The notes under the pieces are model-generated. The model worked only from the letters and a program-made list of their open reading frames with translations, did no database searches and had not been told where the DNA came from. The translations under genes were made by a program, and so were the position numbers. A stretch of 64,000 bases of DNA from Crocinitomicaceae bacterium (GTDB lineage Bacteria; Bacteroidota; Bacteroidia; Flavobacteriales_D; Parvicellaceae), in NCBI GenBank assembly GCA_002723085.1, contig PBNK01000020.1, positions 1 to 64,000 on the forward strand. The letters are read 5' to 3'. The stretch's first letter is position 1; each line of letters begins with the position of its first letter. Positions 26,495 to 30,481 of this stretch are shown here, piece by piece.

Positions 26495-27409
26495 TTAATC
26501 TTTTTTACTTGCAATTCTCAGTTTTGCGCTACGTGCTCTTGAATTAACCTTGATTTCCTCTTCATCTGGGACTATAGGTTTTCTAACGACCTCTTCCAAA
26601 GTTCGATTTACATTCCCATAAAAGTCCTTATCTAAAACTCCCTTAACATTTCCAGATCTAATGAAATTTTTAACCATTCTATCTTCTAATGAATGATAAG
26701 TAATAACCACCAAACGACCTTTTGGGTTTAAACAATTAGGAATTTGTTCCAACATCTCAGAAAGCGATTGCATCTCTTGATTAACTTCAATTCTTATCGC
26801 TTGGAAGACCCTTGCTAAAAACTTATTTCTTGTCTTAAATGACGTTAACCCTCCAACAGCATAGGCTAATTTTTGAGTACTGTTAATTAACTCTTCATTT
26901 CTTAGGGAAATAATTTTATTTACAATCTTTGAAGCCAAACCCTTGTTAAATTCTCCAAATTGAATAAAAAGGTCAATCATATCAGCCTCATCATAATTAT
27001 TAACCACATGGAAAGCATTTAACTCTCCAGCCTGGTTCATTCTCATATCCAACAAGCCATCGTGGTTAAATGAAAATCCTCTTTCGCCCACATTAAACTG
27101 ATGAGAAGAAACTCCTAAGTCAGCCAAAACACCATCGACACAATCAAAACCATTAACATTCAACACATTCTGGAAATGCCTAAAGTTTTGTTGTACCAAC
27201 GTAAACCTTGAATCATCAATAACATTTTTTGAAGCATCAGCATCTTGATCAAACGCAATTAATCTTCCTTTATCAAGTTTATCTAAAATTTGTTTAGAAT
27301 GACCTCCACCACCAAATGTCACATCAACATAAAAACCATTAGGATTTAAAACCAATGCATCTGTAGCAGCATGTAAAAGAACTGGTATATGATATTCGTT
27401 ATTCTTCAT
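26495..27409 (-). CDS. rsmH: 16S rRNA (cytosine-1402-N4)-methyltransferase
   Basis: Methylates C1402 of 16S rRNA. Seen: N-terminal YHIPVLLHAATDAL, VDVTFGGGGHSKQIL (SAM motif I), VLADLGVSSHQF, GFSFNHDGLLDMRMN, and VITYHSLEDRMVKNF near the end. I place the start at 27409, which gives 304 residues and the family's usual N-terminus (MKNNEYHIPVL). A second ATG seven codons upstream at 27430 is possible but adds residues without family support. The chosen start overlaps the end of mraZ by 11 bases. Confidence 0.96.
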   Translation of the reverse strand: MKNNEYHIPVLLHAATDALVLNPNGFYVDVTFGGGGHSKQILDKLDKGRLIAFDQDADASKNVIDDSRFTLVQQNFRHFQNVLNVNGFDCVDGVLADLGVSSHQFNVGERGFSFNHDGLLDMRMNQAGELNAFHVVNNYDEADMIDLFIQFGEFNKGLASKIVNKIISLRNEELINSTQKLAYAVGGLTSFKTRNKFLARVFQAIRIEVNQEMQSLSEMLEQIPNCLNPKGRLVVITYHSLEDRMVKNFIRSGNVKGVLDKDFYGNVNRTLEEVVRKPIVPDEEEIKVNSRARSAKLRIASKKD

Positions 27410-27857
27410 CCGAAGAATCTCCCATAACATCTGCAGCTAGGGCATCAAACTCATTCCAGTCATTATTCATGATTTTTTCATAACAATCCTTATCCCAAAT
27501 CTCCCACAAATCAACATTAGCAACAACGACTACGTCTTTTTTGATACCAGCCCAACCAAGCAAACCTTTTGGAAGAAGAACTCTACCACTACCATCAGCC
27601 ATAACTTTAGTAGCTCCTTTCTGAAACATTCTAGCAAATTTCCTATCCTTAGCTTTGAAACGATTGAGCTTCCTTAGCTTACTCATAACAACCCCCCACT
27701 CTGAAGATGTATACATTGACAAACAATCATCAACACCCCTAGAAATAACGAATTGCCCCTGATCCTGTGGAGATAACTGCTTTCTCATATCAGAAGGGAT
27801 TAACATCCTACCTTTGACATCTAGCTTACAGTGATATTCTCCAATAAATCCAGTCAT
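27399..27857 (-). CDS. mraZ: Transcriptional regulator MraZ
   Basis: DNA-binding regulator of the division and cell wall cluster and its first gene. The 152-residue protein has two SpoVT-AbrB-like repeats: GEYHCKLDVKGRMLIPSDMR near the start and GSGRVLLPKGLLGWAG in the second half. The C-terminus is Asp/Glu-rich. In E. coli MraZ binds direct GTGGG-type repeats upstream of its own gene; such repeats are present here 39-53 bases before the ATG (27896-27910). Autoregulation is inferred. Confidence 0.96.
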   Translation of the reverse strand: MTGFIGEYHCKLDVKGRMLIPSDMRKQLSPQDQGQFVISRGVDDCLSMYTSSEWGVVMSKLRKLNRFKAKDRKFARMFQKGATKVMADGSGRVLLPKGLLGWAGIKKDVVVVANVDLWEIWDKDCYEKIMNNDWNEFDALAADVMGDSSDEE

Positions 27858-27895
27858 GAGCTTTAAACTTTAATCGTAAAACTAATAAATATTTA

Positions 27896-27910
27896 CCCAC
27901 ATTTTCCCAC
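27896..27910 (-). promoter_or_regulatory. MraZ operator: two direct GTGGG repeats upstream of mraZ
   Basis: On the minus strand GTGGGAAAATGTGGG carries two GTGGG blocks exactly 10 bases apart (one helical turn). MraZ is known to bind TGGGN repeats spaced this way upstream of mraZ. The last base of the pair is 39 bases before the mraZ start. An almost exact mirror copy lies at 28016-28030. Confidence 0.8.
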
Positions 27911-27921
27911 ATTTAACAAAT

Positions 27922-27930
27922 TGTGAATAA
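27922..27930 (-). promoter_or_regulatory. Single DnaA-box-like 9-mer upstream of mraZ
   Basis: Minus-strand TTATTCACA fits the consensus TTATNCACA exactly. It lies 11 bases upstream of the MraZ operator. A single 9-mer in AT-rich DNA can occur by chance, so I give this low weight. Confidence 0.25.
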
Positions 27931-28015
27931 CTTTTTACGCTTTAGGTTAATTTTTGTTTCAAATAAATATAAAAAAAGATGGATTTTACAGATATAAAAT
28001 AACATTACTATATTA

Positions 28016-28030
28016 GTGGGAAAATGTGGG
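28016..28030 (+). promoter_or_regulatory. Second MraZ-type operator, facing the acyltransferase operon
   Basis: Plus-strand GTGGGAAAATGTGGG is identical, base for base, to the mraZ operator at 27896-27910 read on the other strand; identity continues for three more bases (TAA). It ends 75 bases before the ATG at 28106. The two operators form an inverted repeat separated by 105 bases. The remaining part of the 248-base divergent gap holds AT-rich sequence with no gene that I can support. Confidence 0.7.
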
Positions 28031-28105: not shown

Positions 28106-28948
28106 ATGAGTCAAATACAGCAAATAAATGTTGAGAATATTTTACTAGAAAAAAGCCCTAAACTACACAGGTTTCTACCTAAGTTTTTTATTAACTGGCT
28201 TAAAAAAATACTTCATGAAAAAGAAATCAATCAAATTCTTAGAGAATTAGAAAACGATTTTGAAATAGATTTCATAAATAAGGGGTTGAAAAAATTGAAC
28301 GTTAAATCTCAAGCCATTAGCATTGAAAACATACCTAAAAAAAGTGGTGTAATCCTTGTTGCAAACCACCCATTAGGTGGACTAGACGGCATTGCTATGA
28401 TACAACAAATAAGCAAAGTAAGAAATGATGTTAATTTTTTAGTTAATGATATTCTGACTCAAATAAATAAATTAAAACCTTATTTTATACCTATAAACAA
28501 ACATGGGAAAAACTCTAGAAAAAATCTCCTAAAAATAGATGAGCTATATAAATCTGAGTCTTGTATTGTTTTATTCCCAGCTGGTCTTGTTTCAAGAAGG
28601 CAAGAAAATAAAAAAATAAAAGATTTAGAATGGAAAAAAAGTTTTATTACAAAAGCAAAAAAACACAACAAAACTATTATCCCAGTACATGTTAATGGAA
28701 TAAACTCAATAAAATTTTATAATCTTTCATATTGGAGAAAAAAATTCGGAATAAAACTAAATATAGAAATGTTATTTTTAGTTGATGAAATGTTTAAAAA
28801 AAATGGATCTACCATTACATTTTCATTTGGAAAACCAATCTCCCCAGAAATTTTTCACAATAAAATATCTGATTTAGAATGGGCACAAAAGATTAAAAAT
28901 CATGTATATGAGTTAGAAAACAATCCTAACTTTGATTTTAGAATATAG
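28106..28948 (+). CDS. PlsC-type O-acyltransferase, GlsA/OlsA-like
   Basis: A 280-residue 1-acylglycerol-phosphate-acyltransferase-fold enzyme. The catalytic block VANHPLGGLDGIAM has the NHPxGGxD form (in place of NHxxxxD of PlsC) known from hemolysin-like and ornithine/glycine-lipid O-acyltransferases. FPAGLVSRR is the matching glycerophosphate-binding block. It lies five bases before a PF13444-type N-acyltransferase, giving the same order as the two halves of the fused enzyme OlsF. Together they probably make a diacylated amino-acid lipid (inference). I chose ATG 28106; an in-frame TTG at 28085 would add seven residues. The upstream region has a mirror MraZ operator. Confidence 0.85.
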   Translation: MSQIQQINVENILLEKSPKLHRFLPKFFINWLKKILHEKEINQILRELENDFEIDFINKGLKKLNVKSQAISIENIPKKSGVILVANHPLGGLDGIAMIQQISKVRNDVNFLVNDILTQINKLKPYFIPINKHGKNSRKNLLKIDELYKSESCIVLFPAGLVSRRQENKKIKDLEWKKSFITKAKKHNKTIIPVHVNGINSIKFYNLSYWRKKFGIKLNIEMLFLVDEMFKKNGSTITFSFGKPISPEIFHNKISDLEWAQKIKNHVYELENNPNFDFRI

Positions 28949-28953
28949 TAACT

Positions 28954-29895
28954 ATGGAACCAATAATATCACCAATATCAAAATCTATTATAAAAAAAGA
29001 ACTTAATAACAATAGATTTATAAGGTCAACCAATTACGCTAATCATGAAATTTACATTCTAAATCACCTTAACAGTCCAAATACTGTAAAAGAGATTGGA
29101 AGATTGAGAGAAATCACCTTTAGAGAATCTGGCGGTGGCACTGGCAAACCTTTAGATCTAGACAACTTTGACACAAGAGACGAAGCATACTATGAGCAAC
29201 TTATAGTTTGGGACCCTGAAAAAGAAGAAATAATTGGAGGTTATAGATTTATTAAAGGAAATGAAATTTTAAAATCGCCTAAACACAATGATTTAGCTAC
29301 TAATGGACTTTTTAATTTTAATCAAAAGTTCATAGATGAATACCTTCCATATACTATAGAACTAGGCAGATCTTTCGTACAGCCTAATTACCAACCTTCA
29401 TCAGGAAATAAAAAAGCTATTTTTTCTTTAGACAACTTATGGGATGGATTAGGCGCCCTTGTTGTAGACAACCCAGAAGTGAAACATTTCTTTGGAAAGG
29501 TAACCATGTACTTAGATTTTCACAAATTAGGTAGAGACTACATTCTTGGGTTTTTTAAACATTTTTTTTCAGATAAAGAAAAACTTGTCACACCTATAAA
29601 AGCTTTAGATTTACACTATAATATTAATGAATTTATTAACGAAATATCAGATCTTGAATTTAAAGACGCTTACAGACTTTTATCCCAAAAAAATAAAGAA
29701 TTGGGAGCAAATGTCCCACCTTTGATTGGAGCCTATATGAATCTTTCAGCATCAATGAAGTCTTTTGGCACAGCTTTAAATCAAAAGTTTGGAGATGTTG
29801 AAGAAACAGGAATATTAATTTCTATTGAAGACATATACCCAAACAAAAAAGAAAGACACATCACAACCTATAAAAAAGTGGGAAATGGAAATTAA
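28954..29895 (+). CDS. N-acyltransferase of the OlsB/GlsB type (GNAT fold)
   Basis: A 313-residue protein whose first 200 residues match the N-acyl amino acid synthase family (PF13444 type): IGRLREITFRESGGGTGKPLDLDNFD, then IIGGYRFIKG, and YTIELGRSFVQPNYQ, which fits the acyl-carrier binding region. Members add a 3-hydroxy fatty acid to the amino group of glycine or ornithine, giving the lyso-lipid that the O-acyltransferase then completes. Bacteroides GlsB with GlsA makes glycine lipids this way. Which amino acid is used here cannot be read from sequence. The last 11 bases overlap engB. Confidence 0.85.
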   Translation: MEPIISPISKSIIKKELNNNRFIRSTNYANHEIYILNHLNSPNTVKEIGRLREITFRESGGGTGKPLDLDNFDTRDEAYYEQLIVWDPEKEEIIGGYRFIKGNEILKSPKHNDLATNGLFNFNQKFIDEYLPYTIELGRSFVQPNYQPSSGNKKAIFSLDNLWDGLGALVVDNPEVKHFFGKVTMYLDFHKLGRDYILGFFKHFFSDKEKLVTPIKALDLHYNINEFINEISDLEFKDAYRLLSQKNKELGANVPPLIGAYMNLSASMKSFGTALNQKFGDVEETGILISIEDIYPNKKERHITTYKKVGNGN

Positions 29896-30481
29896 AAATG
29901 CAGAATTCATTTGCAGCAATACTGAATGGGAAAAATGTCCAAAACCAGATAAACCAGAATATGCTTTTATAGGACGATCTAATGTTGGGAAATCATCATT
30001 AATCAACTCTATAACCAACCATAAATCTCTTGCTAAAACATCAGGAAAACCGGGAAAAACACAGTTAATTAATCATTTTTTAATTAACCACGATTTTTTT
30101 TTCGCAGACTTACCTGGTTATGGTTATGCAAAAGTATCTAAAAAAGATAGAGAAAAATTTAAAGATTTTTCAATGAAATACCTACAATTAAGACCGAACT
30201 TAATGTGTCTCTTTTTATTAATTGACAGCAGACATTCTCCTCAAAAAATAGACCTTGACTTTATGGAATATTGCAGCACTAAGGAAATACCCTTTGTTGT
30301 CTGCTTTACAAAAACTGACAAACTCAAACCTAAAGAATTAGAGAAAAACATAAGAATATATGAAGAAACTCTTTTAAAAAACTGGGAAGAAACACCAATG
30401 CATTTTATTACCTCTTCAATTGAAAAAACCGGCACCAAAGAACTTCTTTCCTTTATTGATCAAACAAACCAACTTTTTTAG
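29885..30481 (+). CDS. engB: Ribosome biogenesis GTP-binding protein EngB/YsxC
   Basis: Small GTPase needed for large-subunit ribosome assembly. G1 is GRSNVGKSSLI, G3 is DLPGYGYAKVS, G4 is FTKTDK, and G5 is SSIEKTG. I place the start at ATG 29885 (198 residues, MEIKNAEFI...), which matches the family N-terminus. A start at 29825 would add 20 residues lying inside the upstream gene with no family counterpart. It overlaps the N-acyltransferase by 11 bases. Confidence 0.96.
   Translation: MEIKNAEFICSNTEWEKCPKPDKPEYAFIGRSNVGKSSLINSITNHKSLAKTSGKPGKTQLINHFLINHDFFFADLPGYGYAKVSKKDREKFKDFSMKYLQLRPNLMCLFLLIDSRHSPQKIDLDFMEYCSTKEIPFVVCFTKTDKLKPKELEKNIRIYEETLLKNWEETPMHFITSSIEKTGTKELLSFIDQTNQLF

Follow-up and report, generated by a model that had tools for sequence, protein, structure and literature searches.

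A conserved mirror-image pair of GTGGG boxes upstream of mraZ in Flavobacteriales: a putative bipartite operator of the division cluster

Among the most conserved gene clusters of bacteria is the one that begins with mraZ. MraZ operators have been described in E. coli, Burkholderia and Mollicutes, and in all of them GTGG(G/T) boxes repeat head to tail every 10 bp just upstream of mraZ and overlap its promoter; the array facing mraZ in the locus described here appears to do the same. For example, in Burkholderia the repeat array overlaps the mraZ start site (PMC7761207), and in Mollicutes the MraZ motif takes the form (AAAGTGKN3)3 (PMC5282649). The rings formed by MraZ have been described as octamers (PMC5282649, PMC7761207), and a ring suits contact with several sites. 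Operators that act in pairs are represented by the lac system, where O3 and O1 are 92 bp apart and a helical repeat of 11.1-11.6 bp has been fitted to loops in vivo (PMC1762422).

The window analysed here is a stretch of 64,000 nucleotides from a Crocinitomicaceae bacterium (contig PBNK01000020.1 of assembly GCA_002723085.1). In it, mraZ and glsA are transcribed divergently, and the gap between them holds two copies of the 15-mer GTGGGAAAATGTGGG in opposite orientation (Table 1). The stretch common to the two sites extends to 18 bases, GTGGGAAAATGTGGGTAA. An initial annotation had reported these mirror-image GTGGG pairs, and their positions, their strands and the extra three shared bases were all confirmed. 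In the whole genome of 2,431,853 bases the pattern GTGGGN5GTGGG has two matches, which are these two sites. The genome that carries them also carries a gene for MraZ, as judged by curated models. The MraZ of the window has two DxxxR-type half-motifs, LDVKGR and ADGSGR, and the solved MraZ structures related to it are PDB 1n0e, 9qlg and 9qlr. Curated models, with scores above their cut-offs, showed the divergent acyltransferase genes, which had been called glsAB-like, to be true glsA and glsB.

Table 1. Candidate operators, predicted promoter element and neighbouring genes in the window
Feature	Positions	Strand	Remarks
rsmH, next after mraZ in the division cluster	26495..27406	minus	start codon approximate
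mraZ	27399..27857	minus	152 aa; PF02381 and TIGR00242 above cut-off
Predicted mraZ -7 box, TAGTTTTA	27877..27884	minus	12 nt past the operator core
mraZ-facing (inward, primary) candidate MraZ operator	27896..27910	minus	pair of GTGGG boxes spaced by one helical turn
DnaA-box-like element, AAGTTATTCACA	27922..27933	minus	11-12 bp upstream of the primary operator
Mirror-image (outward, auxiliary) candidate MraZ operator	28016..28030	plus	120 bp from the primary operator, start to start
glsA, lyso-glycine-lipid O-acyltransferase	28106..28948	plus	NF053697, 333.6 bits (cut-off 260); start ATG 28106
glsB, glycine N-acyltransferase	28954..29895	plus	NF053696, 447.4 bits (cut-off 300)
engB (ysxC)	29882..30481	plus	TIGR03598

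The inward site closely follows the described MraZ operators. In E. coli K-12 the mraZ array reads GTGGGAAATTGTGGGGCAAAGTGGG; the inward site shares its boxes and 10-bp period, departing from it in the third box and in the spacer letters, and also agrees with the Mollicutes motif. The site was found in 37 of 37 regions of the window's family, and almost every genome searched has an inward array ahead of mraZ. A search of the open-access literature gave no paper on flavobacterial mraZ promoters. The flavobacterial -7 box has the consensus TAnnTTTG (PMC9723704), and a TAnnTTTR element follows the inward site after 11-12 nt in 37 of 37 regions of the window's family and in 27 of 30 of family f8. 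With the predicted -7 box at that distance, the inward site would span about -38 to -24 of the predicted promoter. It thus appears to overlap the predicted mraZ core promoter, where a bound protein would be expected to block polymerase.

The outward site has no such partner. A -7 box at the corresponding fixed distance was seen in 0 of 35 regions of the window's family (f1) and 1 of 30 of family f8. In relatives, divergent promoter boxes, where recognisable, are found some 34-80 bp farther out than the site. The outward site was at one stage considered as a core-promoter operator, with TATATTAG as an overlapping -7 box; this was dropped because relatives have no fixed box there. By resemblance and position, both sites nevertheless look like MraZ operators. 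The earlier assignment of both to MraZ thus stands in so far as motif and position resemble the MraZ sites of E. coli and Mollicutes; judged from sequence, the operators are putative.

Conservation of the second site was followed in the mraZ upstream regions of 118 genomes of the order, from 13 families. The genomes surveyed include metagenome-assembled ones, the named relatives are marine Flavobacteriales, and start codons were set by homology. An outward GTGG-N6-GTGG, 110-300 bp upstream of mraZ, occurs in 88 of the 118 regions (counts within a family are not independent observations), and the wrong orientation occurs in one. Box spacings other than N6 were met in 0-2 of the 118 regions, and shuffled sequence gave the site at a rate of 0.2%. 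The second GTGGG pair is therefore kept in relatives, and in the same places, which the initial annotation had proposed as a check. A stricter pattern that takes in both sites was found in 51 of 399 genomes of the order, and the reversed-pattern control gave 0. A chance inverted repeat is ruled out by the absence of control matches in the 399 genomes together with the single wrong-way site among the 118 regions. At the level of the class, the outward site was detected in 9 of 40 further regions and the wrong-way site in none. The flanks of the outward site are not conserved. The second site is missing in about a quarter of the order-level regions and in most class-level families tested, and hence mraZ control does not in general depend on it. 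In families f3, f4 and f6, in part of f9 and in most class-level families, mraZ is faced by three to five head-to-tail GTGG boxes, usually without a mirror pair, against two boxes plus a mirror pair in the other families.

The outward site is locked in position to mraZ, not to the neighbouring gene. The inter-site distance, measured from innermost box to innermost box, is 95-98, 107-109 or 118-119 bp in the window's family and 106-114 bp in the 30 genomes of family f8. The gap between the outward site and the nearest neighbour gene, in comparison, ranges from tens of bp up to about 1000 bp. Even within one genus, g8, the distances fall one turn apart, at 97-98 and 107-108 bp. Over all families they cluster near 74, 86, 97, 109 and 120 bp. 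The best period in a scan from 9.5 to 12.6 bp was 11.3 bp (P=0.009), on 17 family-by-cluster events that are few and partly dependent. A test on ten events gave P=0.014 at a period of 10.5 bp; with all outliers kept, significance at 10.5 bp was lost, and P for the period scan was still about 0.01.

Whether a genome has the mirror pair also varies with the number of inward boxes. Among genera with exactly two inward boxes the pair is present in 31 of 35, and among those with three or more in 10 of 47 (Fisher P=1e-9, on raw counts). In phylogenetically separate pairs the trade-off runs at about 4 to 1 (P=0.38) or 3.7 to 0 (P=0.13), neither of which is significant, and it is therefore offered as a reading and not as a result. 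The trade-off would fit a requirement for some four boxes in all. It is conceivable, if somewhat doubtful, that in Bacteroidia with two inward boxes a mirror pair one loop away replaces the longer array, the MraZ ring engaging some four boxes in either case. If this is true, the division cluster of such lineages has an operator that works by looping where others have the longer array.

The initial annotation had gone further, taking the outward site as an operator of glsAB by which MraZ would couple aminolipid synthesis to division. In the window genome glsA is indeed divergent, with its start 75 bp beyond the site, and in the window's family the site is kept in 24 of the 26 members that have glsA there. 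However, it is also present in 11 of 11 members without adjacent glsA, and no MraZ-type site was found upstream of nine glsAB loci away from mraZ. For example, in genus g8 of this family (L101, L114, L125) engB is directly divergent from mraZ and glsAB is elsewhere, and both operators are kept. Having glsAB beside mraZ is peculiar to part of the window's family; elsewhere the two are apart. The usual divergent neighbours of mraZ in the order are engB and an alpha/beta hydrolase gene, and those of site-bearing mraZ include the alpha/beta hydrolase (the commonest), engB, an EamA-type transporter and many singletons. Twelve genomes keep the outward site next to a neighbour co-directional with mraZ, and so have no adjacent divergent gene; in four of them the stop codon of that neighbour is only 49-134 bp from the site. 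These co-directional ORFs are mostly real by Pfam (Cys/Met metabolism enzyme, pseudouridine synthase, YitT, class-III aminotransferase, DUF4249), with Pfam matches lacking for two. Nor is there a promoter box at operator distance, the likely divergent promoters of relatives lying farther out. The site is equally well kept without glsAB and beside other neighbours, and unlinked glsAB loci are bare; therefore it was not put there for glsAB. Control of the aminolipid pathway by MraZ through the second site is accordingly not supported, and an operator role for glsAB is quite improbable. The gene glsA is probably a bystander, and the distribution fits a history in which glsAB settled beside an older two-site mraZ region.

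More generally, MraZ might repress both mraZ and any divergent gene, with one site for each, and most site-bearing genomes do have a divergent gene. The geometry is unequal, though, since the -7 box is fixed at 11-12 bp for mraZ and none is fixed at the outward site, and the site remains where a divergent gene does not adjoin it; bidirectional control of this kind is unlikely. A conserved, unannotated divergent transcript, either a small or an antisense RNA, would account for the site where the neighbour is co-directional. It is a very improbable explanation given the near absence of a fixed-distance -7 box in families f8 and f1, the lack of tRNA in the co-directional loci and of any Rfam match in the window gap, and the unconserved flanks of the site. 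To our knowledge there is no binding assay in this phylum, which gives some room to the idea that a regulator other than MraZ occupies the boxes. HsdC-like proteins also read GTG-type repeats in Mollicutes (PMC5282649). This is the least probable of the alternatives, as the inward array is built like that of E. coli mraZ, in boxes and in period, matches the MraZ motif of Mollicutes, and stands upstream of mraZ itself almost wherever it was sought.

Other elements have been observed around the two operators. The E. coli DnaA box has the consensus TTWTNCACA. A match to it upstream of the primary operator is present in 37 of 37 regions of the window's family, 6 of 6 of family f13 and 17 of 24 of family f9, and shuffled sequence gave a rate of 0.3%. 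Family f8 has TTATNAACA-type versions in its place. This DnaA-box-like element could couple transcription of the division cluster to the initiation of replication. An TTGATTTTATTGGATT-like element, possibly the site of a bending protein, lies at the centre of the presumed loop between the operators in family f8 and is reversed in family f10. A Flavo-1 RNA (RF01705) was detected at L118:2246-2334, upstream of a class-III aminotransferase gene. As for glsAB itself, glsB is in two pieces in two genomes (G021, at L113, and G036, at L127). In G036 there is a stop within one piece and glsA is only partly matched; these cases reflect either decay of the operon or assembly errors.

The reading preferred here is that the two sites are parts of one bipartite operator of mraZ and the division cluster; this is probable, if by no means certain, with the auxiliary array bridged to the primary one by MraZ, perhaps most readily by looping. 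A ring-shaped MraZ oligomer bound to the primary GTGGG pair would cover the mraZ promoter around -33 and block it. The second pair, in mirror image and 120 bp away in the window (in most genomes some 85-130 bp upstream), would raise occupancy of the primary site, most likely by the bridging of both arrays in a short DNA loop. What is observed directly is the two sites with their conservation, orientation and spacing, and their indifference to the neighbouring gene; binding of MraZ at both sites, looping and repression are inferred. As the second site is kept whatever the neighbour, its likeliest role is to tighten control over the division genes, and it does not speak for a link to lipid genes. 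The loop may also damp a divergent promoter where one exists, so that in the window genome an effect on glsAB is possible, secondary if it occurs. A conserved and apparently helically phased second operator offers a direct test of DNA looping by MraZ. It is also a caution that shared divergent operators need not mean a functional link with the neighbouring gene.

Among known systems, the glsAB glycine-lipid operon of Bacteroidota is matched here in its genes, both of which exceed the curated GlsA and GlsB cut-offs; elsewhere, in contrast, the operon is found away from mraZ, and MraZ boxes are missing from its upstream DNA. The arrangement of the sites resembles that of lac-type loops, in which a main operator at the promoter is joined by an auxiliary one about 92 bp upstream (PMC1762422), and the inter-site distances surveyed here appear to step by about 11.3 bp, close to the helical repeat fitted to lac loops in vivo. 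The lac comparison is limited to this arrangement, in that MraZ is an unrelated protein with an AbrB-fold ring, each of the operators described here is a directional repeat array, and the loop is a proposed one. In the MraZ operators described elsewhere, three or four boxes follow one another head to tail in one array, and within 350 bp of E. coli mraZ there is no outward pair. Here two inward boxes are accompanied by a mirror-image pair 95-130 bp upstream, and that second pair is new relative to the known single-array MraZ operator.
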